Source of the DNA: Mesostigma viride
Taxonomy: Eukaryota > Streptophyta > Mesostigmatophyceae > Mesostigmatales > Mesostigmataceae
DNA length: 64,000 nucleotides
Direction of reading: 5' to 3'
Assembly: GCA_009746045.1 (NCBI GenBank)
Contig: RPFO01000068.1
Coordinates: forward strand, 49,088 to 113,087
Shown here one piece after another: positions 26,185 to 47,330 of the stretch (position 1 is the stretch's first letter; each line of letters opens with the position of its first letter). The position numbers and the translations under genes are program-made. The notes beneath the pieces were generated by a model. That model was not told the origin of the DNA, ran no database searches, and was given only the letters and a program-made list of their open reading frames with translations.

Positions 26185-26570
26185 ACACGGCGGTGTTGTC
26201 CCCGGCTACCGCCTGTCCGACCTGCTTTATGCGGATGATACCACCCTCATCACGCGCCCCGAGCACATTCAGACCTGGCTGGACTGTCTGGGCTTGGAGG
26301 CGAGGGCGGTGGGGACGTTGGAGATTAGTGTCAAAACTGAGGCCATGGTGATTGGGGCTTCCAGTCACCCGCCTCTGGCCGCGGCTGCTAGACGGGACGG
26401 AGGTTCCGTTCCGTGATCGCTTCAAACTGCTGGGGAGCATGCTCCCTGACACCGCCGACGATGTGGGCACCCGCATCGGCCTGGCCTGGGCTCGGCATCG
26501 TGTCGCGTACTCGTGCCGAACTCCCTGCACTGACAGTAGCCCACGACCTAGTTGGCCCTCATGAGGTATG
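26185..26570 (+). mobile_element. LINE RT fragment, plus strand
   Basis: Encodes LLYADDTTLITRPEHIQTWL and DCLGLEARAVGTLEISVKTE, the YADD-containing part of the RT, then LLDGTEVPFRDRFKLLGSML. It has no start or end of its own and is broken by frameshifts. Confidence 0.75.
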
Positions 26571-26643
26571 GCTGCATGGGTGATCGATGGGCCACATGCT
26601 AGCCTTACCCCACTAGTGCTGCCCACTTTTCTCCCCCCCCTCG

Positions 26644-27430
26644 CTACCAAGTCCTTTGCTGGGTAGCGAGCAACAAAGTGGCAGTAGCTGCTTGAATCGC
26701 ATGGGTGGTGAACCCCGCAGCAATGCACACAGGGCTAAACCAGGAACCCTCAGGTACCTGAGACAGAGGGGGTTGAAGGCAGTGAAGATGCCAGCCGCAG
26801 TTGCAGTGATCACACAGCAACATGACCTCAGGCTCAGGGTCGACCCGGTGACAAATTTGACACTGCGCATCGCGGATGCGCCTAGCGGTGTGCGGCTGGA
26901 TGCTCCGTGCCAGGTGGGGCATGGAGCAAGGAGACAGGTTCGACACATTGTCGGTGGTCTTACTACCATCCGCACCTTCGAGGACGGCCACCCCCGAAGG
27001 CTTAATCTCCACAATGCGAAGGATGGTGGGCCCGGCCGTGACGTCCAGCGTGTGTTGGGGTTGAGTCCGCAGAAACACATACTGGCCGGGGTGGAACTGC
27101 AGCCGCCTGGCCATATACTTGCCACCCCGTCGCTGGGCGTACCGCAGTGTGTCGCGGTGCTGCGCGATCAACAGATTGTTCATCGCGATGGGCATCACCT
27201 TCTTAAATGTGGCGGCGCGCGCCACAACCTCCCGCAGCCACTCATTGGCGTCATTCCATTGAATCGGCTGGGGGTGAGCTTCCTGCACCTCAGAGGGCAA
27301 CAATGGTGCCCGACCAAAGAGCAGAAAATAGGGGGAGAACTGCATGGGCGAGGGATTCTTGTGGGCCGGCTCATCCGGTAGCCCATGGCGATCCAGGGGA
27401 GTTCCCTATCCCTGGCAGGTGGCCACACTG
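26644..27430 (-). CDS. integrase C-terminal part with PHD finger (frameshifted)
   Basis: The first part reads DRELPWIAMGYRMSRPTR, the end of the integrase core. After a frame change near 27345, SPYFLLFGRAPLLPSEVQEA and a basic C-terminal domain (FHPGQYVFLRTQP) follow. The last 60 residues hold CQICHRVDPEPEVMLLCDHC, then GWHLHCLQPPL and GSWFSPVC. This is the C4HC3 spacing of a PHD finger, a histone-tail reader. A chromatin reader fused to integrase could direct insertion to marked nucleosomes; that role is an inference. Confidence 0.8.
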
Positions 27431-28940
27431 TCGCGTTTGCGTGCCATTATATCCTGGACTGATCATTACCGCTACTTGAATGCATCCACTATCAGCAGTA
27501 ATCATGTGTGTGATATGCCACCTCCCCCCCCACTCTTTAGCTCACAACAACTTGAGAGCAAAAAGTGAAAGAAAGGCAGCTCACACAACCGAAGGAAGCC
27601 CAAAGAGGGCGTCATTCCAGGCAGCAGCAAAAAGGAAAAAAAAAAATCCAGCTGCTCAAAGATGCTTTTCCAGGATCAGCAACAACCTTAACATGCATGC
27701 TTTTAATTAAAGGCTTAGCAATAACCCCTTCAATGGCTTTTTACAGGGAAAAGCCTAACCTCTTCAGATGCTTTTGAAGGCTAAGCAATAACCTCTTCCT
27801 TGTGCTTCCCTGGGTGAAGCAGGAGGAACCCCAGGCTGGCCGGACTGAACCCATCATGGGTTGTTCGCTCGTTAAATATCCAGTGAGATGCAGGTCACGG
27901 ACATACTTGGCCGCCGACCTCATGACAGGCAATTCCGTAGCCAGCCAGCTGTAGAATAAACCATGATGCTTTATATATTTGGAAAGTAACCAAAACATTC
28001 ACATTTAATTTCAAAAGACATCGACAAGGATACAAGTGTTGTCTAGTCGTATAATTAATGTCGTACTTGTGCGTCACTGTCCAAATAAGGCCAAGCGGTT
28101 AATTCTTGATAACCTAGCAGGCCTCGGGTGACGCCACACTGCTCCGCTTGGCTTACGGCTGGCAGTGTCCTTTAGCGCCCCCTATCCTGTCTACCTATCC
28201 CGAACTGCTTACCCCAGCTATGGCTCACTGCAGTCTGCAGTGCATGGCCAACGACGACCGGGTTCCTTCCCGAGTCTCGCCCACAATACACACATCATCT
28301 TGACGAAACCAAACAGTTATCACTTCCGTTAACCAATCTCATGACAATTACTCATTGCAACCACTCTCGGGGGCTGCTCCGGATTGTTCCACTATTAAAC
28401 CCCTTGACGACAACACCAAGTTGTGAGGGAGAGTAACGAGCGAACAACGACCACCATGGCCGCTGCTGTGCTCCTAAATACCTCCAAAAATCCTGGCATC
28501 CATGCGCTGTCGCATTTGCCAGCAAGCCGCCTGACGTGCAGTTAGACTGCCAGCAAAATGCAGGGCAAGTCTGTTCGACAGCCACGTGCGAGCCAGCACA
28601 CCGCACACTACGATCTGCGTATCTAGCTTTGTCAGATGGACTGAACATCATTCCGTCTGGACAATACAAAAGATTCATAACTGCCAAATGTCACGCACCG
28701 GAATATTGCGCAAGCCACCAAGGCTTTGCGCCCCAAAGTCTTGCGCCCGAACCTAAGTCAGGTCACCTAAGACTGTCACTCTAGAAATTCAGGCCTTTCC
28801 GGCGCGGCGCTCCACACCGGCCCAAGGAACAAAGCCTGCGGCCTATACTGAATCGGAACCAACCAAACGTCGGATGCCAACGATTCCGATTACGGCAATC
28901 GCGTAACTTCTTGAGTGCACGGACGTAAATGATCACGGAC
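27431..28940. other. 1.5-kb insertion within the integrase gene, no gene seen
   Basis: The integrase sequence stops after KWALQAAHVVTSVIIYVRAL (near 28920) and resumes near 27430. The DNA between has no recognised coding region. 28410-28470 resembles 25640-25710, suggesting a dispersed repeat. The limits and any target duplication are not resolved. Confidence 0.5.
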
Positions 28941-29750
28941 GTGACAACATGTGCTGCTTGCAACGCCCATTTGCGCAGCGCCTGTTTGACTGTCTGAACC
29001 AAACGCTCAGCCAGTCCATTGGCCTGAGGGTGCTCCCGCGACGTGTGCCGATGATCGATGGAGCAGGAATCCAATAGCTCTTGGAATTCCCCACGAAATT
29101 CCCCGCCTTGGTCTGAAACCACCTCCGCCGGTGCCCCATACCGAGCAATAACATCCAGGAAGTAGGTGGCTGTGGTGGCGGCGTGCTTGTCGGGTAGGGG
29201 AATCAGTTCCAGCCACTTGCTGAACGATTCCACACACACCATGACGTAACGGTTGCCGGAAGTGCTGAGCTCAAAGGGCCCACACAAGTCGACGTGCCAC
29301 CGGTAGAACAAGCCCCGGATGGGCAAGCTCATGAGCTCCTTGTCATGATGGTCCAGGTTGAAACGCGCTTTCGCGCGAGCACACTCAGCACAACTGGCTA
29401 CCTGCCGTGCTATGGCATGCTTCATGCCTGCCCACCAATAGACCCCACGCACCCTGCATGGCACCTGTGCGGTGTGCACCCATGTGCCCGAACCGCTCAT
29501 GGTAATGTGCATTGACGAGGGCAGCACGCTTGTCAGGGGGCGGCACGACCAGCTTGCGGCGCCCCACAAGCTTGTAGACCTGGTTGCCCTCCCAGGTATA
29601 ATTCACAGCCCGGCGCTCCACGCGCTCTTGCTCGGCTTGCCTCTGCGTCGGTGTCCAGTCAGCAGGGGCTGGAGAGGCAGGCAAACCCTGCACCCGCTCT
29701 TGAAAGATCGAACCCTCCCATCCAGCCACACGTCCCCAGCTCAGCACTCC
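28941..29750 (-). CDS. retrotransposon integrase, zinc-binding and catalytic core
   Basis: The HHCC zinc module is visible as HYHERFGHMGAHR and, after a frame change near 29465, CAECARAKARF. The DDE core follows: WHVDLCGPFE (first Asp), APAEVVSDQGGEFRGEF (second Asp) and HPQANGLAERLVQTVKQAL (Glu). The enzyme inserts the cDNA into the host genome. The core ends at the 1.5-kb insertion. Confidence 0.9.
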
Positions 29751-30403
29751 ACCGCAATGGCGTGACTAGCGGCAGCATGCAGCACCACACAGCCCATGCT
29801 CGCCGGATCCACCGGCTGCGCAAGCGTGTCTTCAGCCAAAGGAAGAAATATCACGCCCTGGGATCGTGGCGTGAAAGCCGCTGGCCGTACGGGATTCGCG
29901 TAGCACGCAAACTCCGCCATGGCATCACTGCAGGAAAGCCATCGCGACTCGGAATCGCATGGCCCGGCTGCGTTGACAAAGACGACTGAGCCCTGTGGTC
30001 CCTCCGTGCCCTGCGCTCGCGCCCCTGTCCGGTCCTCTGAGGTTGCCAAAGCATAGCGTGATAAGACATCGGCATTGGAATGGTCCACCCCAGCACGGTG
30101 TACAATGGTCATGTTATATTCTTGAATAATCATGGCCCAGCGCGCCAGCTTGCCTGTCAGATTAGCACTTGTCATCAACCACTGCAGTGGCTGATGGTCG
30201 GTGACCAGCGTGAACTGACGCCCGAACAAGTATGGCCGAAAATGTTTGATGGCCCACACCACGGCCAGAGCCTTGCCCTCATACGATGAGTACTTGGCCT
30301 CAGCCGTGTTGTTGCTCCTGCTGGCATACGCCACCACATGTTCCTTGCCATATATGCACGTCCTTCTAGTGCCAACACAGCACCAAGTCCAACCCTGGAC
30401 CAA
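29741..30403 (-). CDS. retrotransposon RNase H and connection to integrase
   Basis: Encodes VVAYASRSNNTAEAKYSSYE, GKALAVVWAIKHFRPYLFGR and TLVTDHQPLQWL, then ADVLSRYA: the Ty3/gypsy RNase H motifs with Glu and Asp residues that cut the RNA strand of the hybrid. The first Asp (VLYTDWSRVGLG) is in the preceding frame; the frame changes near 30350. Confidence 0.9.
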   Translation of the reverse strand: MVQGWTWCCVGTRRTCIYGKEHVVAYASRSNNTAEAKYSSYEGKALAVVWAIKHFRPYLFGRQFTLVTDHQPLQWLMTSANLTGKLARWAMIIQEYNMTIVHRAGVDHSNADVLSRYALATSEDRTGARAQGTEGPQGSVVFVNAAGPCDSESRWLSCSDAMAEFACYANPVRPAAFTPRSQGVIFLPLAEDTLAQPVDPASMGCVVLHAAASHAIAVEC

Positions 30404-31925
30404 TCCGTGTATAGCACAAATGGCTGGGCATAGTCGGGCTGACGGAGTATCGGCGCTGAGGTGAGCTCTGCCTTGATGGTCTCAATGGCGCGTTGCTGCG
30501 CCGGACCCCATGCCCAGACTGCACCTTTCTTCAACAGCTCCGTCAGTGGCTTAACCTTGGTGCTGAAGTTGGGGATATAACCTCGGTAATACCCCGCCAG
30601 CCCCAGGTAAGCCCGCACACCCGCCACATCCGTGGGCGTTGCCGCGTTGACGATCGCTTCCACCTTGGCCGCTTGTGGAGTTCTGCCGCCAGGAATGATC
30701 TGGTGTCCGAGGAAGTCGAGGCTCCGCTGCGCAAACCGACACTTCTCGGGATGCAGCTTTAGGTTGGCTCGCGCCAGTGCCATGCGCACCTGCTCAAGGT
30801 GCTGGAGGTGTTGCTCAAATGTCTCACTGAAGATGATCACATCATCAATGTAACACGCAGCGAATGGCATGCCATTCAACACTTGATCCATGGCACGCTG
30901 AAAGATGGCACTCGCATTCCTATGCCCGAAAGGCATCCTGACCCACTCATAGAGTCGGTGGCCCCCCCAGAACGCGAGCTTGCGTTGGTCACCCTCCGCC
31001 ACTTGGATTTGGTGAAACCCACTGCGGAGGTCTAGGGATGAGATGAACTGCACGCGTGGCGATATCCGGTCAAGCACATCGTCCACTCGCGGCATGGGGT
31101 ACCTGTCCATCGGGGTGTGTGCGTTGAGTTGCCGCAGGTCCGTCGCCATGCGCATCCCAGTCCATTCACCTGTCACCGCATCCTTCTTGGGCGCCACGAC
31201 GGTCGCGGCCGCATAGTTGGATGTGGATGACCGAATGATGCCAGCAGCCTCCAGCTCCTCGCATTGTTGCTGCACAAACTCCAGCTCAGCTTGACTCAGC
31301 CGGTGTTGTCGGCGAAACAGTGGCTGATCGGTGTCCAGCGGGACCCGCATCTGCCCACCATTGTAGCATCCCAGCTCTTGACTGCTGAATGCAAACGCGT
31401 TGCGCGCACCTTCCAGCCACTTGAGCAGCCTCGCGCGTTGCTCAGCTGTGAGGTGCTCACAGACGCTCCATTGATGGTTTGCTGCCGGGTCGCTTGCGCT
31501 CGAGACATTGTGCACAGCCACCGTGGGACCGCGCACGGCCGCCGACTGAAACAGCATGTATGCCGCCGCTCCCGGCGTAATGCCTCGCTCTCCCATGCAC
31601 CTGCCGTTGTGCCTTCGCCACGAGGAACTGAAAGGCCGGAGCCGCCGAGAACACACAGCTGGTGAGGAGCGCAGTCATGAGGATGACTGACCATACCTGG
31701 CGCCAGGTGTAGGACCACCCTTGGCCCCTGCTGCCTGCACGCTCCGCCAATTACTGTAGGCACACCAGCCGGCGCAGCACCGGTGGGTGGAGAAGTGTCA
31801 CTCTGCGCCTGTGCAGTCGCAGCATGGACGGGGAGTGCAACCCGCTGCACCCTCCGCACACCTTGCGCTGCTAGCAAGGTGTCCACACCTGCCAGGCTGA
31901 CATGGCCTGGCCAACGAGCGACCAT
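30350..31925 (-). CDS. retrotransposon reverse transcriptase
   Basis: RT motifs in order: PLFRRQHRLSQAELEFVQQQ, AAATVVAPKKDAVTGEWTGM, MATDLRQLNAHTPMDRYPMP, FISSLDLRSGFHQIQ (first catalytic Asp), RMPFGHRNASAIFQRAMDQV and CYIDDVIIFSETFEQHLQHL (YIDD, near 30850), then GYYRGYIPNF. The palm appears intact from about 31500 to 30500. The N-terminal part changes frame near 31600. The upstream end is at the CACTA insertion (31937). Confidence 0.95.
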
Positions 31926-31936
31926 CGCTCCACCTC

Positions 31937-32370
31937 CACTAGAAAAGGAGATGACCGGGCGGTAACACGCCCGGTAACACGAACGAACCCGGTAACATGC
32001 CCGGTAACATGGGTCCGTTCATGTTACCGGGCCAGTTCGTGTTACCGGGCCGGTTACCGGGTTCCGGCGTTCGTGTTACCGGGCGTGTTACCGGGCACGT
32101 TCATGCTACGATGCCTGTTACCGGGCATGTTCATGTTACCGGGCCAGTTCGTGTTACCGGGCCGGTTACCGGGCATGTTCCGGCGTGTTACCGGGCGTGT
32201 TACCGGGTACGTTCATGTTACGATGCCTGTTACCGGGCATGTTCATGTTACCGGGCTAGTGCGTGTTACCGGGCCGGTTACCGGGCATGTTCAGTGTTAC
32301 TGGGCGTGTTACCGGGCACGTTCATGGTACGTTGCCGGTTACCGGGCATGTTCATGTTACTCTATGCACG
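31937..32370 (+). repeat. left terminal inverted repeat and subterminal GTTACCGGG array
   Basis: About 60 bp of terminal inverted repeat are followed by some 25 copies of GTTACCGGG/CCCGGTAAC in alternating contexts (GTTACCGGGCATGTTCATGT and variants). Such arrays are the usual transposase-binding sites of CACTA elements. Confidence 0.85.
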
Positions 32371-32374
32371 TTAG

Positions 32375-32650
32375 CCAGCCATAATGTCAACGCATGTAAG
32401 GCTACACATGTCCATCTCCATTCATATTCGTCATCATGAACCGGACTCGCCAACGCGGACAAGATAACGGCAGGCTCGAGCTACCATGGTCCGGATTTTC
32501 CGATTTCTGGCCTGCGCTGGTTGTCTCCTTGATAAATGACATGTCGGTGCTGCATGGTTGACTCTCTTTGATATTACATAATTAAACTCGTTATTAATTG
32601 AACTCGTTATTAATTACACTCGTGCTCTCGTTAGGGAGTCATGGAGCATA
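32375..32650 (-). repeat. copy of the 5S-locus dispersed repeat plus LINE-end hairpin
   Basis: GGACAAGATAACGGCAGGCT, TCGAGCTACCATGGTCCGG and GGTTGTCTCCTTGATA match 18720-18865. The hairpin variant CTCGTGCTCTCGTTAGGGAG then TCATGGAGC lies near 32620-32650. Confidence 0.7.
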
Positions 32651-34199
32651 TTAATTAACATCTTGCGTTCGTTGCCTATGTACGGGATACTAGACAGTGT
32701 CCTTCCAGTCCGTTTTGCTTGCCGTACGTTGCACCGTTCAGTACGAGGCACATTGATGTACGGTTCGAAGCACAGATATGTACTGCGCGTACTAACGCCT
32801 GGCACAAAACTTTCGCCGCGCGGATTTCAAATTTGGGGAACGGGTTGTTACCTCCAAAGAAAGACGTTAGAAGACCAGGGGCGGGGATGGCGGTCGGCGG
32901 ACACGGAACTGACGAAAGCCATGAATGGCGACGGGCGGAAACATTATCGCCGCTGGCCAGTACGCCAGCGCTTGTGACAGTGCTGGCTCGGGACAAGATA
33001 GGGTTGACATGGCAGAATTCGTCTGGCAGGAATGGTGGACTGTTAAGGTCGGGAAAAGAAGGATTGCCAGCACGGAAAACTCTCAGCGAAGTTCAGAGAG
33101 TTTCCACATACAGTTTAGATGTAGGTCCGTAACCGAGTATGCCTGGAGAAATTCGATGTTATTCTGGTTGTTTTTTCAATGCGGCCTGGCAGTTTGTCAA
33201 GAATTGCTCAAATGAGCTAAGGATGGTGATTCCCACTACGTACACAGTGCCTCTTGTTAGGTAGCTAGGACGTCAGCCGCGGTTGTATTTCCACGACAGC
33301 ACCGACGAGGAGCCAATCCTGGAGGCCTCTCCCGAATCCGGCAGTATGCAGGGGTAGCAATTCAAGAGAACGCGAGCGGTAAATGGAGCGATGAGCTGCA
33401 GTGCAGACCGCATGGCAGCAGGGGTGGCAGCGAGAACCGCACTAGAAGCGGTTCTAGTAGCGACGACATGTGAGTGACATAAGTAACGAAGAATAAGCAG
33501 AGCGAGATTCTGGAGCTATCCAAAACCTACAAGGCCGTCATGGACAGGCTGTGATCGAAGAGGAATGGAGCTGGGAAAATGAGCAACGGCGTAGCTGAGC
33601 AAGGATACTTATGAGAATGGCTTGGCAGGTTGCATTGGAAGGCCCATAGACCGCAAAAGCGGCATTCTGAGCAAAAGCTGGTTTCTTAGTATAGCATGAA
33701 CTCTGAATTCTTGATTTCTTTTCCTCTTACATGCGTGGTCAATTTCATGAAGATGACCATCATGAAGTACCGTCCTTCGGCATTTTCGTGTGTAATGCCC
33801 GTTTGTTGTCAAAGCACGTCCATGCAGACCTGAATCCCATGCAGGCCCCAAGCGTCAATTGCGACTATCTTTGCAAAGGAAAAGCATCTAGACGTGTTCT
33901 GATGAAGCCAGTAAGGTCAAATGTTTCATGGTGCTTCCTCATTAGCCACATAGTTGATTAGATACTAACTTGGTTGGTCCATGCGTGAGTATGTGCGTGT
34001 TGTCATCAGTTTGCTACCTACTTTTAATTACCTTACCTACTTACTAGCTTTGTTATTGAAGGTATTTTCCTAATTTTGCACTGGAATTCATTCCTCACAT
34101 CACCACTATTCTTTCACCCCTTTGCAATCGCAACAGGAGGGACGGAGTGTTATCTTCTCCGCGGTCATGAGTTTGTCCCTTCTGCGTGGTAAGTGTCAT
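32651..34199. other. CACTA interior, no recognised gene
   Basis: Open frames up to 137 codons exist (for example 32719-33132 plus), but none contains a recognised transposase or DDE motif. No RNA gene is seen. Confidence 0.4.
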
Positions 34200-34920
34200 A
34201 AAGTTGATTAGTCCCTTGGTCCCTCACTTGCTCCTTGCTTCCTTGCATGCTTGCTTGCTTGCTGAGTTCGATAAAGCCCTTGCTTCCTTGCATGCTTGTT
34301 TCCGTCTTTGCATGCTTGCCTGCTTCTTTGCGTGGTTGCTTTCTTCCTTGATTAGGCCCTTGCTTCGTTGTATAGCCGCTTGCTGAATTTGATTAATTCC
34401 TTTCTTTATTCCCTTGCTTCCTTGCATGCGTGCTTCCTGAATGTAATCAGTCCCTTGCTTCCTTGGTTATTCCCATGCTTCCTTTGTCAGCCACTCTTCC
34501 TTGCATGCTTGCTGAATTTAATTAATGCCTTGCTTCCTTTGATATGACCCTGCCTACTTGGTTAGGCCGTTCCTTCCCTGCATGCTTGACCACTTGCTGA
34601 ATGGAAGCAGTCCCCTGATTCCTTTGTTAGGCCGTTGCTTCCTTTGTTAGCCCCTCTTCCTTGCATGCTTGCAATTGCTTGCTTGCTGAATTTCATTAGT
34701 CCCTTGATTCCTTTGTTAGGCCCTTGCTTCCTTTTTTAGCCACTCTCTTCCTTGCGCGCATGTACGCTTGCTTGCTGAATTCAATTAGTCCCTTGCTTCC
34801 TTGGTTAGGCCCTTGCTTCCTTGGTTAGCCACTCTTGCTTGCTTGCTGAATTTAATTAGTCCCTTGCTTCCTCGGTTAGTCCGGCCTTGCTTCCTTGCAT
34901 GCTTGCTTGGTGAATTTTAG
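34200..34920. repeat. diverged tandem repeat of CCCTTGCTTCCTTGCATGCT type
   Basis: Irregular units built from CTTGCTTCCTTGCATGCTTG, CTTGCTGAATTTAATTAGT and TTGGTTAGGCC recur across 700 bp with variable spacing. It is inside the CACTA element. Confidence 0.8.
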
Positions 34921-34924
34921 TAGC

Positions 34925-35995
34925 CCTCTCTCCCCCCTCTCTCTCCCCTCTCTCTCTCCTCTCTCTCCCCTCTCTCCCCCTCGCTCCCCCTCGCTCCCCC
35001 TCGCCCCCCTCGCTCCCCTCGCCCCCCTCGCCCCCCTCGCCCCCTCGCTCCCCTCGCCCCCCTCGCTCCCCTCGCTGCCCCTCCTCCCCCTCGCTCCCCT
35101 CGCTCCCCCTCGCTCCCCTCGCTCGTCCCCCTCGCTCCCCTCGCTCCCCCTCGCTCCCCCTCGCTCCCCCTCGCTCCCCCTCGCTCCCCTCGCTCCCCTC
35201 GCTCCCCCTCGCTCCCCTCGCTCCCCTCGCTCCCCCTCGCTCCCCCTCGCTCCCCTCGCTCCCCCTCGCTCCCCCTCGCTCCCCTCGCTCCCCCCCGCCC
35301 CCTCGCCCCCCTCGCCCCCTCGCTCCCCTCGCTCCCCCTCGCCCCCCTCGCTCCCCTCGCTCCCCCTCGCTCCCCTCGCTCCCCCTCGCTCCCCTCGCTC
35401 CCCTCGCTCCCCTCGCTCCCCCTCGCTCCCCCGCCCCCCTCTCTCCCCTCTCTCTCCCCTCTCTCTCCTCTCTCTCCCCCTCTCTCCCCTCTCTCCCCCT
35501 CGCTCCCCCTCGCTCCCCCTCGCTCCCCCTCGCTCCCCCTCGCTCCCCCTCGCCCCCCTCGCTCCCCCTCGCGCCCCTCGCCCCCCTCCCCCCTCGCTCC
35601 CCCTCGCTCCCCCTCGCCCCCCTCCCCCCCCTCGCTCCCCCTCGCCCCCCTCGCCACCCTCGCCCCCCTCGCCCACCCTCGCCCCCCTCGCCCACCCTCG
35701 CCCACCCTCGCCCACCCTCGCCCACCCTCGCCCCCCTCGCCCACCCTCGCCCCCCTCGCCCCCCTCGCCCACCCTCGCCCACCCTCGCCCACCCTCGCCC
35801 CCCTCGCCCCCCTCGCCCCCCTCGCCCCCTTCGCCCCCCTCGCTCCCCCTCGCTCCCCTCGCCCCCCTCGCCCCCCTCGCTCCCCCTCGCTCCCCCTCGC
35901 TCCCCCTCGCTCCCCCTCGCTGCCCCTCGCTCCCCCTCGCTCCCCTCTCTCCCCCTCTCTCTCCTCTCTCTCCCTCTCTCTCCCCCTTCCCACCC
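34925..35995. repeat. pyrimidine tract (CCCCCTCGCT)n, 1.07 kb
   Basis: An almost pure C/T strand with only G in CTCG units; the units CTCCCCCTCG, CGCCCCCCTCG and CTCTCTCCCC vary in blocks. The long glutamate/arginine/glycine or serine/proline frames on both strands are artefacts of this composition. Confidence 0.95.
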
Positions 35996-36569
35996 CCCGC
36001 TCTCTTGTTCCTCCCGCACCCCTCCTCTCTCTTTCCCTTTCCCTTGGCTGTTGAGAAGGACTGGGGTGAAAACTCCATACCGTTGGTGGCTGCCTTCAAG
36101 CAGGAAGTTTCAAGGATCAACAAGTTTTTGTGAGCTGTCTGATATGGTCACTGCTGCGACAAAGGTGAGTTGTCTCGTTTTTCATGCAATTTTTTTGTTG
36201 TTGCTAGGTAAGCCGGCCATTTTGTACTCCCCTGTTTTTGCTCTCACGATTTATCCTTGTTGTGGTTTGTATGGTCCCGTAAAGTGGCATGCATTATCAC
36301 TATCCACATTAGTGCTGGAAACCATCCGCAGTGTTTTTGCTGCCGCCACCTCTGCTATTACCAACGTTAAAGCATTCTTGCTTTCTAAGCACTCTTTTTC
36401 CATCAACTGCAGTGACAAACACAAGGGTAGACATAGGCAACGACAAATTCCTTGCATGCGTGCCTTGCTCTTCACCGGCTGGCTCGTTTGCTGGTTGTCT
36501 AACAGTTTCTACGGATAAACTGCACATGCAATTGTAAGGTCTGCCTTGCTACCATGCTAGTGGGTAGCA

Positions 36570-36845
36570 GGGTGATCGTGCTTGTTCCTTGTCAAGGGAG
36601 GGATGCATGTGGAGTAGGTGGGTGGGTGTGCTTGTTCCTTGCCAAGGGAGGGATGCACAAAGGTTAGGTAGGTGCACGTGCTTGTTTCTTGTCAAGGGAG
36701 GGATGCACGAAGGGTAGGTGGGGGCACATGGTTGTGCCTCGTCAAGGGCGGGATGGACGAAGGGTAGGTGGGGGCATGTGGTTGGTCCTCGTCAAGGGAG
36801 GGAGGCACGAAGGCTAGGTGGGTGCATGTGCTTGGTCCTTGTCTT
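36570..36845. repeat. 50-bp tandem repeat, about 5 copies
   Basis: CAAGGGAGGGATGCA-like cores at 36593, 36643, 36693, 36743 and 36793 give an exact 50-bp period. It lies near the right end of the CACTA element. Confidence 0.93.
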
Positions 36846-37554
36846 TTCACCGCCCAAGCGATGGCGATGTAGCATGCATTATACATTGATTCGTGCATTA
36901 AAAATCACTTTCCTTACAAGCGGCCTTTGCCGGCTCCATCTGCCGTTGCCATTTCTCCGTATTGCTTTGTCCGGACACGGTTTTTGTGTCGCAGGTCTTC
37001 CCCCGTAAAGGCACAAGCTGCCTGCGCGCGGAATTCTGTGGAGACACCTCGGTTTCCAACACGACGGCCTCCCGTACATATCGAGCTCTGGATGTACAAC
37101 ATCTTCCCCCGGCGCACTTGCTCCCGGATGGAGCTTCTGTGCGGTGCCGACATCCCCGGATCTGTCCTAAGCACCGCATGGAAACAGTATTTCAAGCCAC
37201 GAAGAGAAGCCACGAATTTGATGTTGACTTGATATGCTTCTTTCTGTGAAGGCGTTGGATTTTTGTGCATGACATGTAATCCTGCATGTAATAATGAAAT
37301 GTTTTATGAAAATGAATCTCGTCTTGCATGAGCCTTGCTGCAAATCCCATTCATTTTTTTTTTCCCCCGGGTAAATGGGTGTTAGGGGTTAGGTTGACCG
37401 AAATGCTAAGTGAAACTCTAAGTGACATCCTGGTGACTGCAATTCAGAACGACATAACGACATGATTGTAGTACCGGTAGTGTACGCGAGAAGCATACGA
37501 CGTCGTAACCTACGGGACGAATACCGGGATCGTACAGTAAACGGACCCCATAAC
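36846..37554. other. CACTA interior, unassigned open frames
   Basis: Overlapping frames of 70-118 codons occur on both strands at 36890-37270, where the sequence is less repetitive than elsewhere in the element. No domain is recognised; it could be captured host sequence. Confidence 0.3.
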
Positions 37555-37897
37555 CTGACCGGTAACCTGAACGTTTACCGGGCGGTAACCTGAACCAGCC
37601 CGGTAACAAGGCCTTGTTACCGGGCAATAACGTGAACGTGGCCTCGTTCCGGTTACCGGGCGGTAACCTGAACCGGCCCGATAACAAGGCCTTGTTACCG
37701 GGCTTGTTCTGGTTATTGCCCGGTAACCCGAACGTGGCCACGTTCACGTTACCGGGCACGTTCCGGTAACTGCGGCCGTAACCGGAACGGACCCTGTTAC
37801 CGGCCGGTAACATGGGTCCGTGCATGTTACCGGCCCCGTTACCGGGTTCGTTCGTGTTACCGGGCGTGTTACCGCCCGGTCATATGCTTTTCTAGTG
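37555..37897 (-). repeat. right terminal inverted repeat and subterminal repeats
   Basis: Reverse complement of the left end for about 60 bp, preceded by GGTAACCTGAAC and GTTACCGGGC repeats. The outermost bases read CTTTTCTAGTG. Confidence 0.85.
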
Positions 37898-37943
37898 TCC
37901 AGGAGCCCTGGGGCGGCGGATGCACCTTCGGCAAAGCCCATGC

Positions 37944-39180
37944 TTAGTTCACGAAACCCCGCGGGTGGCTGAACCAAGAGACCTGTGGCACGCTCCCACA
38001 CAAGCCCCTTGCCCCGATCACGATATAAGCCTGGGACCCTTGGTAACTGACAAGGGTGGGCAGTGCTCGCATGGGGGCGCCTGCCTTGTTGACGGGCGCG
38101 TAGGGTGCCTGATCATCGTGCTCCACATACTGCGCCGTGAGTTGACTGGGCAACACGACATCGACCGGTGGCAGCTCAATGTGGCTAGCGACATGCTGCA
38201 TCACCGCCTGCGTAGAACCTTGGCCAGCGATGTTGGTCCAGAACGCGCGCAGCCGATGGGTATTCCCTCCCAGCCCGGCATTGTCCGACACCACGGTTTC
38301 CCCCAAAATACCCACAATGGTGCCCCAATCCTCCCGAACAGTGGGGCTGGGACTGTCCACCGCCACTACGTTTTCAAATAAGTAGGCGGGTGGCACCTGC
38401 TGCAGCTGCTGGAGCTCGCCCACAATGCGCAGCATGTCCCAAAATAGGCCGCTCCTGCTGTCGGCAAGGCCCCGGCCATGCCCAGCCTGGCTCATGCCTT
38501 GGCACTCCCAGCCAGCAATGACCAACCCTACCTCGCCATGTTGTGAGATGAGGCGGCGCAGCTGCTGCCGCCCAAGGAAGCGCACGTCATGAGTCACTGC
38601 CCTCGCCGAAGACATCAGCCCAGGCGGATGGAGGAAATTGTGCTGGGTATGCTTGCGACAAGATAGCGCAGTGGTGCAAATATGCCGCCCTGGCTGTGAG
38701 CGATGCCTCCACCGCAATTAATGAGCTTGCTGCATACCCCCCCGCTGCTCAGGAAACCGGCTATGCCGCCACCCATACCTGCGAACAGCTCCAGCATGAC
38801 GGTGGCACGCCCGAAGTCCGGGATGCGTTCCAGCACCTCTGAGCTAAAGCCGGGGTACGGCGTGACGGCACCCGGCTGGCGCCGCTTCCCCCCAGCACCC
38901 TTGGGCAGTGCCTGACATGCCGCCATCACCCGTGCGCGCACATCGCGCAGGCGTGGCAGGGGCGCAACCTGGGCAAGCCAACTTTGCCTCTGCGCATCCC
39001 GCGCTGGCAACGCCGCAGGCAGCACACAACGGTGCCTATCGCGCGCGCGCTTGTCGCTAGCCGCTTGCGCCATGTGCACCGCTTGCGCGTCCGGCCACAC
39101 GCCCCCCCCCCCAGTTCTCAGCCGCATCCCCTGGCTCCACCTCTATGCTGGCGGGCGACACCACTGCAGCCACACACGCG
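37944..39180 (-). CDS. C5 cytosine DNA methyltransferase inside the retrotransposon (frameshifted)
   Basis: Motif I reads RATVMLELFAGMGGGIAGFL (AdoMet binding). After a frame change in a G7 run near 38740, SLIAVEASLTARAAYLHHCA fits motif II. After a second change near 38610 come THDVRFLGRQQLRRLI, motif IV VIAGWECQGMSQAG and SRSGLFWDMLRIVGELQ. AYLFENVV (motif VI) and THRLRAFWTNI (motif VIII) complete the set. The catalytic Cys is kept, but the usual Pro before it is Glu (ECQ for PCQ). ENVV and HR-R-FW-N recall DNMT3/DRM-type enzymes. A further frame change lies in the G run near 39100. It sits between protease and RT. Whether it is active cannot be judged. Confidence 0.85.
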
Positions 39181-39181
39181 T

Positions 39182-40030
39182 CTAGCTCGACACCACCCCC
39201 TGCGGGTTAGGCTCCGGGTCGCTGCTGCACTGAATGGGAAGAAGCGCCTTTTGCTTCCCCTCCCCGGCCTGCCGGCAATCACGGCGGTAGGTCGCAACCT
39301 CCAGCCAAGGGTCAATTATGAGCCCGAGGCGATACATGACGTCCATCCCGATAAGGGCTGCATACCCACACCTGTCGACCACCAAGGCCGGCACAGCCAC
39401 GCAGGCCATCCGCTTTGGGTCCGTGGGGTTGAGGATGACGTTGATCAGCATGGAAGTCATTGCATCGGGTCGCGCCGCTGGCCCTTTCCATCCCTCCACG
39501 AGAACGGTGCTGTCTATGAGCCCGCCGTTCTCACGGGTCGCACCACACATCTTGGCCAGCTCCATCGTGATCACGAGCGGCCCGGCTCCGCCATCCAGCT
39601 TGGTGACGGACTTTGCGCTGGGGCACACCATAGGGCCCCAACAAGTGCCGTCCTCGCTTATTGCCTGGAAAGCGATAGCCGGGGACCCATCAGGGTGCTT
39701 TGCCACCGTGACTGTCCTCGGCACCCGTGACATCCGCTCCTCGCGGGTTGCTTCCCGGGGCATGGTTGGTGCTGGGACGTCTGCCGGGGTTGCCGGAGTA
39801 ACTGGCATGGTGACCCGCCGCGCAGTTTCCGCCACCGGCAATTGCGTGTTGCCCGAGAAAAACATTGGGATGTTGTCCATCTCAAAGGACTTCGGCAGCT
39901 GGTTATGCGGCGTGACGATATACTGCTGGTGCAGCCAAGTCTTATATTTCCAATAGGCTTGGTTGATGTCAACAAGCCCACCGTCAGCAGTATACCTGTC
40001 CTTCAGCTCCACCTGCGCTTGCACCGGCAT
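39182..40030 (-). CDS. gag-pol segment with retropepsin-like protease
   Basis: The 282-codon frame starts MPVQAQVELKDRYTADGGLV and includes ALIGMDVMYRLGLIID, resembling the end of retroviral-type aspartic proteases (ILGMDFL...). The canonical D-S/T-G active site is not obvious: GGLIDSTVLVEG (DST) is the nearest candidate, which is unusual. The protein continues in frames upstream (gag) and downstream (methyltransferase) after single-base shifts near 40030 and 39180. Confidence 0.6.
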   Translation of the reverse strand: MPVQAQVELKDRYTADGGLVDINQAYWKYKTWLHQQYIVTPHNQLPKSFEMDNIPMFFSGNTQLPVAETARRVTMPVTPATPADVPAPTMPREATREERMSRVPRTVTVAKHPDGSPAIAFQAISEDGTCWGPMVCPSAKSVTKLDGGAGPLVITMELAKMCGATRENGGLIDSTVLVEGWKGPAARPDAMTSMLINVILNPTDPKRMACVAVPALVVDRCGYAALIGMDVMYRLGLIIDPWLEVATYRRDCRQAGEGKQKALLPIQCSSDPEPNPQGVVSS

Positions 40031-40243
40031 TCCCAGTTTCCCACCTTGGATCCCTCAATTGGCGACCCATTGCAGCCCACCGGCAAGCTTGGCGTCCTTG
40101 GTAGAGTAGCCACAAACCTCGGCTCCAGCCCATAGCCTCGTTCCACCGTGTATGGACTGCCTCGCTGCAATCCCGGAATGATGCCTGGCCGCACCCACGG
40201 TGTTTGTGCCCCAAACTCACATGTCCTCAATTGAGGACAAAAT
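40031..40243 (-). CDS. gag-pol segment downstream of the 2.2-kb insertion
   Basis: The frame reads FCPQLRTCEFGAQTPWVRPG, then LQRGSPYTVERGYGLEPRFV and LPVGCNGSPIEGSKVGNW. Its first residues FCPQLRT repeat those at 42403, showing where the coding sequence was split and duplicated. Confidence 0.6.
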
Positions 40244-42402
40244 CCTCCCAATAAGGACAGCACCTTCAGCAGCAGGTATTGGCGTGAAACCTTGGTCCCA
40301 ACGGTCATCTGACCCTTTTCCCGCGAAAATGGACTCCGTACCCGGCGCGGCGCGGTACTGGGGTCGACAGGACCCGTCCGTACCTGTAAATTATGTGGTG
40401 GAGAAAAGTACCTATTTTGGTGGGAACGTTGCAATGCGTGCGTGCGTTCCCGCAAATTGCGGCTATGGGGTCGAGCCAGGTCCGAGGCTTGCCTGAACTA
40501 TACAGGCGATCGTTTTGCCCCGGACCAAGACAGAATTATAGATCAACATCTAGAGCTTCCGCCCAAGCTGTTTTTGGGGGGCAGTCGCTTTTGATTCTCT
40601 AAAAAATTCTTTGATAAACGGAATTTGTCTAGTTTGCAGAAAAACGGGAGGCGACGTAGATTGCATGACAAGCCGGTGCACTGCTCTGTGATGCGCGCTT
40701 TTTTCTTGACATTAGCAACGGATACCGTGAGGGTGGGTATTGTTACGCTTTCGGGTTCAAGGGCGAGTTCTGGGTACAAGTTTTTTGGGCGGTTGGAAGC
40801 GTTAAATATACCCAGTTTTTATGTCTTCAGATCGTCGTTGCGCCTGGCGACGACGGCGGTGGGCGCGAGCCATAGATTTCATTTGCCGCAAGGCTGGGTG
40901 CTGCCCACGCGTCCCCATGCTTTCTTTTATAATTTTCGAGCCTTTCCGCGCATCTGGCCGGCTGGGAGCACGTCGAGAAGCCGTCTCCGGACATCATCCG
41001 CATCCGTTTCTTCATATAAATTACGACAACACATGTCGTAGGTTGTTATTCGATTACATTGTATGATTTCGATTGTGTATTATGCCCAGCCCCTGAAGGT
41101 CATTTTCATGCCGCTGTTGAATGGGGAGAGGCGAGTGTCAGCTGGCCACCGTTTTTTCCTTCCGTTCCGTCAATGCAAAGGTAATCGTTATCTGCATGGC
41201 CAACGCTGGCGTTAGAAGCAATGCCTTGCTTGCTATGGTAAGCGTACGTGTGGATAGTTTCTTGTTGCTGCCTTGTTGCTGAAAGTTTTTCCCAGGCTTT
41301 CTGGGATCTTGCCTATTTGGTTTCTGACATATTACCCTTTTTTCTAGAGGGAGCTAGGTAGAGGAGTTGACCTTGTCATGTTGGCATTCTGCTGCTGTGA
41401 TAGCCTCTTCGTCTTTGCGATACCTATAATGAGCCCTTTATATTGCATGCATGGCTCTACTTAGGGTGCTAAAGCACAATGGTGTCACCTAAGCGTCCTA
41501 CGAAGACCTAGGACCTTACTCGGCCACTGAAAACCTGTCCTTACCCTAGTTTGGCATAGCTAGCTTTCCTTGTGCTCTGCCAAAAGCAGCTGCTCGTATC
41601 GGGTTCCTGGCCATATATGTTAAAAATATAATTACTTACAGCAGAGTGAAATCACTCAAACCAAAGCAAACGCCCAGCTATAAACCTATATACAGAGCCA
41701 TGTCAAAGCTCTATACTACGATAAGACCAATGGAAACGCCTAACGGGAGGAACCTAATAGCCCTGCTGCACCGCAAAATCAGCCCGCGTACGGCGGAGCA
41801 TGATGTCAGCCATGGCCCGAGTCAGCGCCACCGACAAGCGCTGACGCCAATATGACGTCCAGGTCCGCGCCGACCATGGGGCCCGCTGGCCCTCCAGGTC
41901 CAGCCGGTCCTCCCGGAGCCGGCAACACTCCTTGAAGAAGGCGGAGGTCAGGGGCCCCATGGCACCAAACTCCTCCAGGACAAAGGGCACCACCCGATGG
42001 TGCCCGACGTCGCCGTAGGCCAGGAGCTTGGCCCGCTCCGCCCGGTCCGCCGTGTAACCTGGCCATATATGTCATAGCTGGACATCCGTGGGGTGGCCAA
42101 GCATGGGCAGCCCCGGGGTGGCTGCCACATGTTAGGGAGGTGTCCTATGGGTTTGGTGACCACTTGTGGTCCTTTGAAGCATGGTCTTTGTGTCTCATTC
42201 TCTCGTGCATTATAGTGGAGGGTTTTCCTTGGTTGCCGATGCAGGCCCCCCTGCACGTAACAATTCATAATTAAATAGGATATGCGCGCATATGGATGAT
42301 GTTAAGCATTGGAATTACTCTCAAACACATCATAAATGATCATGGTTCAAAGCCCCATATTTAATTTTTTTTGTGTGTGAGAGTTATTAACAGCATTGCA
42401 CT
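40244..42402. mobile_element. 2.16-kb insertion flanked by a 21-bp target duplication
   Basis: TTGTCCTCAATTGAGGACAA is contained at both ends (near 40222-40243 and 42403-42424); the shared 21 bp include a perfect 18-bp palindrome. On the minus strand near 42055-41760, AKLLAYGDVGHHRVVPFVLE and EEFGAMGPLTSAFFKE resemble the C-terminal tail of some retrotransposon RTs. A long target duplication and a residual RT tail suit a 5'-truncated non-LTR element. The rest has no recognised gene. Confidence 0.65.
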
Positions 42403-43238
42403 GTCCTCAATTGAGGACAAAACTGTTGGGTGTGAGCCATTTGTAGCCGTGGCGTCGCTGGGTTTGTTGGTGCCGGCGCATGCGGCACGCCAAAAGAAAA
42501 CCCAGTTTGTGCACTAGGCATCCCAGGCACATGCTGCCGCGATGCCTGCATCTGTGGCACTTGCGCCTGTGGCTGCACGGATGGTGCCTGCGACATTAAA
42601 GGCACCTGCGACTGCAACACCTGCGCTTGGGGCTGCCAAACTTGCGCCTGCGGCTGCAACACTTGCGGCTGTGGTAGGTGCGGCGCTGGTGTCAGCGTTG
42701 CTTGCGCGGTCCACGTCGCGTGCAGACTTGCAATCTGCGCCGCCATGCAACTGCGCCGTCTGCTGCTGCTGCAACTGCATATGAGCCTGCTGTTGCTGCT
42801 GCATATCTGTTGTTGGGATTGTGCTACATGTTGCAAAATCTGCTGCAACACATCCGCACCCACCCCCTGGCTGGCACTTGGCCCCGGCGCTAGCCCGGTG
42901 CCTGCCATTGAACCCGCTGAGCTGTATCTGCGATGATGGTGTGATGGGAAGTACTGTTCCATCTTGAGGACCTGCCGCGCTGCCACCCAGCCCTCCGTTG
43001 ACGACCGATGTGTCACCACCACCACCACCAACGCCACCACTCCGATCGGCGACCCCCCCCCAATTGCCCATCCCGGAACCCGAGGCTGCTGGTGGGACGA
43101 GTGGCCCATTGCCGTTGTCGCCAGTTGGCAAGGATGCCTGCGTGCCTGCAGCATCACCCTGCCGCGGTGCGCCATCCACCACCGTGCCTTGCATGGTTGG
43201 GACTTGGGGTTGGCGCCCCCTTGATGTTCAATGACCAT
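42403..43238 (-). CDS. gag region of the retrotransposon, Gln/Ala/Pro-rich
   Basis: An open frame ending in ATPRLQMAHTQQFCPQLRT. It is dominated by QPQAQVLQ-type repeats and Gln-rich stretches in neighbouring frames. No CCHC knuckle or matrix/capsid domain is recognised, so gag is inferred from position upstream of the protease. The start codon is uncertain. Confidence 0.45.
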
Positions 43239-44600
43239 CTTGGTCTGCCATCAAGCTTCGTGCTTGTGCTCTCGTGAGCACCGTTTCTGCAACCAATCAC
43301 TGGGCTACAGAGTGAGCAGACGTAGTGCAAAATCAGTATGCACCACAGGGGCCACCACTTGGCCCCTTCAACTTGCTGGCACCACACCAGATGCACAGGG
43401 CAAGGAGAAAGAAAACAATTGCCTGAAAGCTGAAAACCAATGCTGCTTCAGGACCTGCTTGCAAGCTGCCTGCCTTGACAGCCTTGCACAGCCAGCTTTA
43501 CCTCTATTCCTATGTAGTATTCAGGAAGAGGCCTCAGCCTTGACCAATCTTACCTAGTAACCAACTCTCAGTTAGCTCTGTGTGGATAAGACGAGAAGCT
43601 AGTGCCAACTGCACTTCTCAAAAAGGTGAGACCTGAGAGTGAGGTATGACTAGGTTAGGCTTCACACTGGGTTCTTTGTTGCAAATGAAATGAACGTTTT
43701 TATTACCAATACTCTACCTAACTAGCTTGGCAGCTCTGTTTCAGCAATAGCTGGGCTCAATGAAAGAAAGGAGGGCTGGCCACACTTGCCACGCACCACC
43801 ATGACCAAGACAGAGTTCAAAGATCCACACAGAGCTACATCCAACGCCCTGGTGGAAACACACACTTATCCCAATGAATGCCTCACACTTACGCAATATC
43901 TTGCGTCAGCCTTACCTCGTAGCCACGCTCAGTATCTGATCCTGACGACAACCGCTTTGTCGTCCATACTGCTTCAATTACACCAAAGCTACTCCGTGGC
44001 ACTCGGCTTTGGTCAGCACCAAGACCTAAAAGTACACAAAATCCTAAGTCGTTGTCTGCAACGACTCCCTGTTCCGCATATGAAACATATCATCTAGCAC
44101 TTTCTCTTTATATACGATAAAATCAACTAGACAACCTGGGTAGGCCAGAAATCCCAGACGACAAAATGCCCTTGTCGCAGAGCACTCCAGTGTCGACTTG
44201 CCGACCCTGAGCTTGCCAAACAACTATATCACCAACCAAGCATGTACGACAACTAGCTGGCCCTGACGAGAAAAGCTGCCTCGTCGCATTCACAAAAGCG
44301 GCTTGCCAGCCTGCCGAATATCAATGCCAATATTGCACGACATTATCTACCTGCAGCGGACAGTTCTCGAGATCAATAACGCGCCAGCTTGCGTGCACGT
44401 GCATGTTCAGCCTGCACAATCCGCATAATTGCCAGGCTGGCAGCCTAGCTTGGTCCGTGTTGTAGTCCAGCAGCCAGTGCGTGCTGCTTGCCAGCGTTGG
44501 CACTGACCTCCTGGTGACTCATGGCAGTACCGCTGTCAACTCCCAGTGCTGCGCGTCGCGCTACGGCGCATGCGTTGCTCCCGTAAGGCCCAAATGCCAA
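43239..44600. other. 1.36 kb upstream of the retrotransposon coding region
   Basis: This is where a 5' LTR and leader should be, but no sequence pair with the region left of 26644 was found by eye. No gene or RNA was recognised. Confidence 0.35.
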
Positions 44601-44609
44601 AGGCGTAAC

Positions 44610-45180
44610 AACTCGCACACGCGCAATGCCTACTAAGCTGCCTCGCCTCGTCCCCCGGGCCGGCCGCGTGGCGGCCCCGCGTAAAGCCAATACTCGTGCG
44701 AATCGGAACGGCGCGCGACATGCAATCGTTCGCTCAAAACCTACAGGCACTCGAAGGCCCTCGGCGAGCACCGCAAACACATGCTCGTCAAGGTCCTGGT
44801 CCTCACGGTGCTCACCTACGGCGCCGAGGCATGGACACTCACGGACAAGCTGGCCGCCAAGCTATAGACGGCACGGTAACCAGGATGCTCCGTCAGGCCC
44901 TGAATGTAGGGTTTTCCACGCAGATCTTTAGAATCTTTGTACCAGGGCATGCCTCGCCTTTCGGACGAGATTAGACAATGTAGGATAGCATTCGTAGGAC
45001 ATCTTGCTCGCACCAGCCATGCAGGTAGACACCGACCTCGGTCTGGCCGGCCCCTAGCGGCTTGGCCAGCCAGGGCGGCATATCTTGACCTGGCCTGGCC
45101 CCAAGGACATACCTAAGAAGGTAGGCAAACATGTCATGACCTACCCCCAGCAGTTGCTGGCCGACCTAGTAGTGGTCCCA
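44610..45180 (+). mobile_element. LINE 3' coding fragment (copy D)
   Basis: Reads VLVLTVLTYGAEAWTLTDKL near 44790-44860, then after frame changes VGFSTQIF, and MTYPQQLLADLV near 45135. It is the post-RT part of the same LINE family as copy B. Copy E follows directly, so the two may be nested or tandem. Confidence 0.75.
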
Positions 45181-45184
45181 GCCC

Positions 45185-47330
45185 CATTTGAACATCGCAT
45201 TCACTCCCTCCAGGGCAAGGACATGTGGTACCACCTCGACCGGCTCGGCGGCCGGCGGCAGCACACCCCGGCATGGAGCACACGGGGGACGACACGGCGC
45301 CGGTCAGCCTTGACCGCTGGTTGGCCCACAATGTTTCCAGGCTTGACCGGTGGGGCTCGCGCCCCCCCTCCGCCGCTTCACCCCGAGACGGCCGCCCGCT
45401 CGGTGTTGCCGGACCCCCGCCGCCGCCAGCGCCCCCCTCCTCGGCCGCGGACTACCAAGTCCCGGCCTTGCAGGAGGGCTGCCTTGCCACTGAGGACGTC
45501 CCCTTCACTTTGAAGGAACTGGACGGCGCCCTTGCTCGCCTGCGGTACGATGCGGCGGTCGGTGCTGACCACCTTTCTGCTGAGCTGCTGAAGACCCCTG
45601 ATCCGGCGGTTAGGGATCTTCTGCTGGCGTTCTGCAACCGTGTCCTGCTTTCTGACGAGCCTCCGCCTGCTGAGTGGCAGACGGCCATCCGCGTCATGCT
45701 GTACAAGAAGGGCTCTGCTGCTGACCCCGGTAACTACCGGGGTGTCTGCCTCCAGAGCGCCGCGCTGAAGGTCTTCATGCGCATGATGCTGCACAGGCTC
45801 CGCGCCGCGCTGGACCCACACCTGGGTGAGTCTCAGATGGGTTTCCGTCGTGGTCGTAACACTGTCATGGCTGTGTTTGTCGCGCGCCGGTTGATGGAGG
45901 AGGTGCGTCGCCTTCCCCCTCACAGTTTGCCGCTGGTCTTCATTTTTGTTGACTATATCAAGGCCTTTGACACGGTCCTCTGGGAGGCTCTTTGGGCCAT
46001 CCTAGCTCTGGATCGGGTGCCACCTGCGTTTATTGCTGCCATTCGCCGACTGTATGAGGGCTCACAGGCAGTAGTGCGGACTGCGGAAGGCACCACCCCA
46101 CCATTCCCCCTTCACCACGGGGTGTGGCAAGGTTGTGTCCTGTCCCCATACCTGTTCATTATTGTCGTGGATCACGTCATGCGCAGGGCACGTGCGCGCT
46201 TTACTGCTCTTAAGGGGTTCGAGCCAGGCTTGGACATCCTTAACGACAGCGCGCACGGCGGGGTTAGACCTGGTTATACCGCCTTGCCGACCTGATTTAT
46301 GCGGATGACACCACCCTCATCGAGAGCCCCGAGCACATTCAGACCTGGCTGGACTGTCTGGGCCTGGAGGCGCGGGCGGTGGGGTTGGAGATTAGTGTCA
46401 AAACTGAGGCGATGGTGATTGGGGCCTCCAGTACACCACCGCTGCCGCGCCTGCTCGATGGGACGGAGGTCCCGTTCCGCGACCGCTTCAAGCTGTTGGG
46501 GAGCTGGCTTCCTGACACTGCCGACGATGTGGACACCCGCATCGGCCTGGCCTGGGCCAAGCTCCGTTCGCTCAAACCCTACTGGCGCTCGAAGGGCCTG
46601 GGCGAGCACCGCAAGCGTGATGCTCTTCAAGGTCCTCGTCCTCACGGTGCTCACGTATACATGGCGCAGATATATATATACATACATGGCGCAGAGGCGT
46701 GGACAATCCCACTCAAACTGGCAGCTAGGCTAGACGGCACGGTTTACAGGATGCTCCGACAGGTCCTTAACGTAGGGTTTTCCGAGCGTCCGTCATCAGA
46801 GTCTTTGTATCATGGCATGCCCCGTATTTCGGACGAGATTAGGCAGCGTAGGATAGCATTTGTAGGACACCTGGCCCGCACCAGCCAGGTCGACACCGCC
46901 CTTGGTCTGGCCGGCCCCCAGCGGCTTGGCCAGCCAGGGCGACACATTCTGACCTGGCCTGGCCCCGAGGGCATTCCCAAAAGGGTATAGGGAAACCTGT
47001 CACGACCTACGTCCAGATGTTGCTGGACGACCTAGTCGGGTCCCAGCCCAGTTTGAGCACCGCATCCACTGACTCTCTCCCGTCTTTGGACTGCCATGCA
47101 GGACAAGACGCGGTGGAAGAGGATTGTCAAGGCGCACACGCCCGACCCTGTGGGCAAGCCCCCTCCCCCCAAGCGGAGGCGGCGTTTGGATGAGTAGTGT
47201 AGTTAGGATTTTCTAGACTAGATAGCTAGGAGTTAGGATAGTTCGATTACGCGGCTTCCTCCACCCCATCCATCATGGAATATATGTGCTCATGATCTCC
47301 CAACGGAGGCATGTTATATAATTTAATTTA
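45185..47330 (+). mobile_element. LINE copy E, RT nearly complete
   Basis: Contains the longest LINE RT in the window and the 3' tail with the hairpin variant (near 47285-47320) and (AATTT)n. The endonuclease is missing, so it is 5'-truncated. Confidence 0.9.
45225..47195 (+). CDS. LINE reverse transcriptase, C-terminal to the endonuclease (frameshifted)
   Basis: The first frame (45225-46295) holds TAIRVMLYKKGSAADPGNYR, GVCLQSAALKVFMRMMLHRL, LGESQMGFRRGRNTVMAVF, FIFVDYIKAFDTVLWEALWA and HHGVWQGCVLSPYLFIIVVD. One base shift near 46280 separates it from YADDTTLIESPEHIQTWLDC, the catalytic YADD (near 46299). The next part has PRISDEIRQRRIAFVGHLAR and ends at 47195 in DPVGKPPPPKRRRRFDE. A short AT-rich insert near 46655-46695 (IYIYIH) interrupts the post-RT segment. 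The enzyme copies LINE RNA into DNA at the target site. Confidence 0.9.

Follow-up and report, generated by a model that had tools for sequence, protein, structure and literature searches.

The early-branching charophyte Mesostigma viride (Streptophyta, class Mesostigmatophyceae) harbors Gypsy-order retrotransposons with a Dnmt3-type cytosine methyltransferase and a C-terminal PHD finger in pol, and on balance we think that these elements mark their own new DNA. The window (the whole stretch of 64,000 nucleotides that was analysed) contains a dead, defective copy of such an apparently recently active retrotransposon.

The methyltransferase had been predicted from its motifs in two minus-strand open reading frames, 39142-38615 and 38717-37944, both of which are present. 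Frame 38717-37944 matches the DNA_methylase profile PF00145 (E 1.4e-9; 38.3 bits, cutoff 22), the check that had been proposed, and frame 39142-38615 scanned alone matched no Pfam family. Alignment of intact copies with relatives bore out motif I as well as motifs IV, VI and VIII, which read ECQ, ENV and HRLR, and revealed IX-like and X-like stretches in the methyltransferase of both element families (A and B, below). The real domain is larger than the span first given for the methyltransferase and is broken into two parts by a 6 kb insertion (Table 1), with frame changes near 38720, 38590 and 38025.

A search of the 440 Mb genome with the methyltransferase frame revealed at least 148 matching places, the window included; these are the places scored among 523 candidates, all at E 2.7e-70 or lower, and more distant families may therefore have escaped notice. 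By hand count among the 148 scored places, a frame of 1642 aa is kept at at least six (family A) and one of 2074 aa at at least 29 (family B), and L015, of family B-like similarity, has a single frame of 2671 aa. The domain scan of one copy per family, L009 (1642-aa frame) and L011 (2074-aa frame), gave the Pfam order methyltransferase, reverse transcriptase (RT), RNase H, H2C2 and rve integrase, and PHD finger, with methyltransferase and RT in the same frame. The original prediction had placed the methyltransferase between the protease and RT of a gypsy-like element, and in many copies of a Gypsy-order element it does lie after protease-like sequence and before RT, the order being checked in L009 and L011; in the window the RT lies downstream of the methyltransferase, past the 6 kb insertion. 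Two EukProt proteins of M. viride match the window methyltransferase frame (98% over 61% and 96% over 51%). Other methylases were noted as well. L047 (G000:C47:641500-648500) and nine more places carry an equal-scoring 364-aa C5 methylase frame, whose neighbors at L047 are an aminotransferase of class V, NifS-like by eye, and a long frame that matched no Pfam family; our guess is that these places are a repeated virus-derived insert. A further 16 places at 148.7 bits have a 313-aa frame with a strong PF00145 score (e.g., G000:C67:20746-21285) and belong to another repeated C5 methylase family.

Alignment of the window copy to the intact L009 revealed an element interrupted by three nested insertions and one deletion, the latter adjoining the gag continuation and removing the counterpart of L009 2497-3766 (Table 1). 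The protease call is based on a motif read by eye, LDGGA in the window and LDSGA in family B, and the stretch around it (about 39.2-39.8 kb) gave no match in a Pfam scan. On the 5' side, four extra nucleotides lie between the CGAT target duplication and the element, and the insertion site is a LINE.

Table 1. Features of the methyltransferase retrotransposon copy in the window.
Feature	Position	Strand	Basis or remark
Family A element, whole copy, short form A1-coding-B1	26501..44720	-	blastn against intact L009, pieces 95-98% identity
A1 repeat, begins TGTCGC	43590..44720	-	inner boundary approximate, offset from L009/L017
gag, 5' part	42441..43153	-	tblastn of L009 gag
Nested insertion 1, 2.2 kb	40208..42439	.	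gap in L009 alignment
gag continuation	39842..40206	-	L009 alignment and tblastn
gag-pro region past deletion, protease-like motif LDGGA	39188..39841	-	tblastn; motif by eye
Dnmt3-type methyltransferase, main part, ECQ at motif IV, frameshifted	37898..38830	-	Pfam, L009 alignment, tblastn
Nested insertion 2, 6 kb, CACTA-like ends CACTAG...CTAGTG, interrupts methyltransferase	31939..37897	.	L009 alignment
Methyltransferase, last part	31938 to about 31868	-	end coordinate is an offset from L009
Reverse transcriptase	30643..31332	-	tblastn, 100% aa identity to L009 over 230 aa
RNase H	30098..30552	-	tblastn
Integrase, first part, H2C2 and core	28940..29561	-	tblastn
Nested insertion 3, 1.5 kb, ends TGTCAC...GCGACA like family B	27429..28940	.	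4-bp duplication, one mismatch
Integrase, remaining part	27136..27410	-	tblastn
PHD finger	26698..26895	-	tblastn; PF00628 in L009 and L011
B1 repeat, ends GCGACA	26501..26632	-	sequence reading
Target duplication CGAT, 3' side	26497..26500	.	5' side at 44725-44728

Other features of the window were recorded alongside. A LINE-type reverse transcriptase frame lies at 45192-46295 (RVT_1, E 1.4e-20), and pieces of this LINE are repeated nearby, one of them hosting the methyltransferase element. In the 6 kb CACTA-ended insertion, sequence of low complexity runs for a long stretch at about 34.9-36.1 kb; the insertion also has inverted arms of 75 nt and palindromic repeats rich in GGTAAC. The 1.5 kb insertion had no blastn match to the repeats tested and is perhaps a non-autonomous user of a similar integrase. 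Two 5S rRNA genes of equal score lie in opposite orientation 6.6 kb apart, at 12634-12752 (+) and 19361-19479 (-).

When the PDB was searched with a profile of three retrotransposon methyltransferases (retro-DNMTs), DNMT3A was the best match (E 2.8e-15), followed by 3C, 3B, DRM and HhaI. Likewise, the structure predicted for P0006, an environmental relative, matches DNMT3A along the domain (top match TM 0.80 on the target); the fold is that of the relative rather than of the window protein, and the model has high confidence in the methyltransferase part and poor confidence at the ends. By profile and by the predicted fold of P0006, the retrotransposon enzyme is of Dnmt3 type. Comparison of families A and B gave pN/pS values of 0.31 for the DNMT, 0.15 for RT-RNase H, 0.23 for integrase and 0.35 for the PHD part, and of 0.49-0.70 for two spacers and the stretch preceding the DNMT, all of them rough values since pS is near saturation between the families. 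By this rough sequence measure, the DNMT domain is under constraint between families A and B.

At motif IV, the window copy and 14 of the 14 other Mesostigma copies read have ECQ (15 further loci, with L002 and L013 being one copy and L001 the window itself). Among the environmental relatives, ECQ is found in eight of 13 and PCQ in five of 13, and a fourteenth, P0013, is without motif IV. The original prediction had noted ECQ in place of PCQ and left activity open on that account; ECQ was confirmed, but its retention in the other copies and in most relatives means that it is no local defect. ECQ also stands in place of the Dnmt3 hallmark PCN. A tree with 17 retro-DNMT rows and 12 rows of other C5 methylases unites the former in one group (support 100/100) containing three groups (Mesostigma, ECQ-environmental and PCQ-environmental rows); host Dnmt3 is not among the rows, so that one capture and several are indistinguishable in it. 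From this distribution over copies, relatives and tree, ECQ looks old and retained, a kept variant rather than decay, and its retention across distant relatives raises the question of the role of the motif IV proline.

The relatives also differ in where the domain sits. Metagenomic pol P0003 (1668 aa) comprises RT, RNase H, integrase and PHD finger with a DNMT between RNase H and integrase, which scores 11.8 bits in Pfam, below the cutoff, and is 35% identical to family A along the domain. RNase H likewise precedes the DNMT in P0004, whereas in P0008 and P0015 protease-like sequence precedes it, by eye, as in Mesostigma; hence the position of related DNMTs in pol appears to be one of two. A bacterial or phage source was considered and set aside, as no relative was confirmed by pattern scans of IMG/VR and GTDB contigs, for which two peptide patterns were used in each case; phage matches cover 39-44% of the query at 31-34% identity.

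Self-methylation of new cDNA is our best functional guess. The methyltransferase would travel with the RT and integrase and methylate CG sites in newly made element DNA, a new copy would thereby arrive bearing the host's mark, and the PHD finger may steer integration through reading histone H3. Relative to L009, taken as a reference and not as a proven ancestor, C-to-T type changes in the window copy affect 18 of 1202 bases in CpG and 10 of 4006 other C/G (Fisher P 3.6e-6), and in L013 10 of 991 and 8 of 3257 (P 0.003); L003 has no CpG excess (1 of 514 versus 6 of 1558) and L010 no C-to-T type change. The CpG observed/expected ratio of the whole window is 0.82; a family A stretch has 0.78 and two stretches of family B have 0.85-0.88. 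These changes fit CG methylation of some copies, by whichever enzyme. Against self-methylation, CpG decay is equally attributable to host enzymes, and L003, one of three old copies compared, is without the excess. The departure of ECQ from PCN/PCQ also counts against methylation as far as sequence can indicate, as does, by analogy, the Klebsormidium DNMT, which gave no methylation in yeast, a result called inconclusive by its authors in the main text of PMC5890265.

Other readings of the domain were weighed against these data. It could be a catalytically dead, DNA- or chromatin-binding part of the polyprotein, for which DNMT3L, catalytically dead and with such binding, is the model. The invariant ECQ of the Mesostigma copies would suit this, but the cysteine, motif I, ENV of motif VI and HRLR of motif VIII are kept in families A and B and the PCQ relatives fall in the same tree group, and we regard a dead domain as rather improbable. 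Still less probable is an enzyme acting on RNA (element RNA or the tRNA primer) in place of DNA: the idea was raised for a LINE-type element by the authors of PMC5890265, yet profile and fold both give DNMT3 first. That a host gene was inserted by chance into the window copy alone, the outcome named beforehand as refuting capture, is ruled out by copy number and open frames; no support for it was found, at least 35 further places share the two main frame lengths, the order is given by Pfam in L009 and L011, and a metagenomic pol carries its own DNMT, leaving this the most improbable reading by far. Of these readings, we retain self-methylation.

Ordinary LTRs, the plain identical repeats at both ends of Gypsy elements, were not found, and the repeats are instead split (A-coding-B-A-B). 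Family A has the layout A1 (1127 bp), coding region, B1 (136 bp), gc, A2, B2, family B follows the same plan, and short copies end at B1 (C1579, C1835 and the window copy). Elements begin TGTC and end GACA, and in family A the joint B-gc-A is a perfect palindrome, GCGACAGCTGTCGC. Target duplications of 4 bp flank 14 of the 14 copies readable at both ends (six of family A, two of them short forms, and eight of family B), a count that leaves out the window copy with its four extra bases and the copies dropped for an unreadable end, namely C1690a, C1690b, C1690c, C1657 and C1813 of 11 family A copies, C1558 of the first three family B copies, all of a further ten family A copies, and C1646, C473, C1657 and C224 of a further ten family B copies. 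These short duplications, the TG...CA ends and the pol order protease-RT-RNase H-integrase with an rve core (L009 and L011; protease by motif) are those of Gypsy elements. The split direct repeats are those of DIRS elements; however, no tyrosine recombinase family was found in Pfam at E ≤ 0.1 in four frames scanned, rve was present in both pol frames among them, and membership in DIRS was rejected on the lack of this recombinase and the presence of 4-bp duplications. A1 and A2 have identities of 100, 100, 99.6, 99.8, 99.6 and 99.8% in six copies, one of them compared over 913 bases, and of 100% in a seventh, over 292 bases, seven of 13 copies having given a pair and six not; in an eighth, C1558, the A repeats are 94.7% identical in an alignment of 510 columns that includes gaps, or 99.7% across 331 bases. 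The families were apparently recently active, their copies being young in appearance and numerous.

Immediately before B1 lies a purine-rich run, GCGAGGGGGGG, alike in both families. The A2/B2 junction takes six forms in eight family A copies, in which A stops at its normal end, two or four bases beyond it, or 139 bases short, and B starts within about a base of the end of the purine run; in family B, eight of ten junctions are alike and two of ten differ. Left out of the junction count are family A copies whose A2/B2 could not be read, as well as C1468, a family A copy in which no A repeat precedes B. A search by eye for a tRNA primer site showed a TGG near the A end of family A and none near the A end of family B. 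B-gc precedes none of the 23 element starts read. Integration of one-repeat circles was considered as the origin of the short form A-coding-B and rejected, as recombination between B1 and B2 would explain it more simply.

The variable A2/B2 junction in family A, with B starting at the end of the purine run, suggests end-joined cDNA integrating via the internal palindrome. The purine run would prime and B-gc-A serve as the repeat, giving linear cDNA that ends in the B start and the A end; this cDNA, with B-gc-A at each end, would be joined end to end, imprecisely, and integrase would then act at the gc of the palindrome inside the repeat, giving the observed layout. A permuted life cycle of this kind, with end-joined circles, the palindrome as attachment site of the DDE integrase, and Dnmt3 and PHD marking and steering the circle, is a tentative and rather doubtful proposal. 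It is weakened by the uniformity of most family B junctions and leaves unexplained why no element start is preceded by B-gc, a constant direction that speaks against free choice between two gc sites. These same observations favor DIRS-like replication, in which A-B-A-B is copied from RNA via an internal bridge without end-joining, as does the layout shared with KnitGypsy-Dnmt3, called DIRS-like by its authors (PMC5890265). DIRS-like replication is nonetheless also on the unlikely side, given a DDE integrase instead of the tyrosine recombinase, the 4-bp target duplications and the variable junctions of family A. The junction data offer a route to explaining the odd A-B-A-B repeats, and if integration of end-joined circles is true, the DIRS-like repeats of methyltransferase Gypsy elements would be a trace of it.

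Elements of this kind are already known. As stated in the original prediction, methyltransferase capture has precedents in dinoflagellates and a charophyte, Klebsormidium: Dnmt3 is reported in pol of Symbiodinium elements and of a Gypsy element of Klebsormidium whose repeats are DIRS-like (main text of PMC5890265), and PMC6338049 refers in general terms to methylase-carrying Gypsy and DIRS elements in green algae and charophytes, among other groups. The literature covered by title and abstract start does not name the Mesostigma element, and open-access titles gave nothing relevant on a PHD finger in methyltransferase elements; the main text of PMC12344493 does not name Mesostigma, and that of the Mesostigma genome paper contains neither "gypsy" nor "dnmt" (PMC6947507). 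The latter reports genome-wide CG methylation, so that with young-looking, numerous copies the pre-marking of an element's own DNA is testable in this alga. The few retrotransposons known to carry a cytosine methyltransferase of their own are joined by those of an early-branching streptophyte and of environmental organisms.

The closest known system by description is KnitGypsy-Dnmt3 of Klebsormidium nitens, which shares the charophyte host, the Dnmt3-type DNMT in a Gypsy-order pol, the domain constraint and the A-coding-B-A-B repeats (PMC5890265). The main text of that paper mentions neither a PHD finger nor target duplications, both present in the Mesostigma elements, and gives fewer copies than in Symbiodinium, against at least 148 places in Mesostigma; protein and metagenome searches for relatives with the Mesostigma methyltransferase or pol gave no match labelled Klebsormidium. 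SymbioDIRS-Dnmt3 of Symbiodinium shares Dnmt3 in pol, split repeats and a domain order that varies from family to family, but has a tyrosine recombinase where the Mesostigma elements have a DDE integrase and 4-bp duplications; according to PMC5890265, de novo CG activity was seen for the Symbiodinium DIRS enzymes only. The catalytic domain of vertebrate DNMT3A/3B is the best profile and fold match along the domain, with 18-24% identity among the 50 Foldseek matches listed, and differs in having PCN; no partner domain adjoins the Mesostigma DNMT, its PHD finger lying at the far end of pol. In chromodomain Gypsy elements a chromatin reader is fused after the integrase, and the Mesostigma elements have a reader in the same place, a PHD finger instead of the chromodomain, which PMC6338049 names as a known accessory domain.
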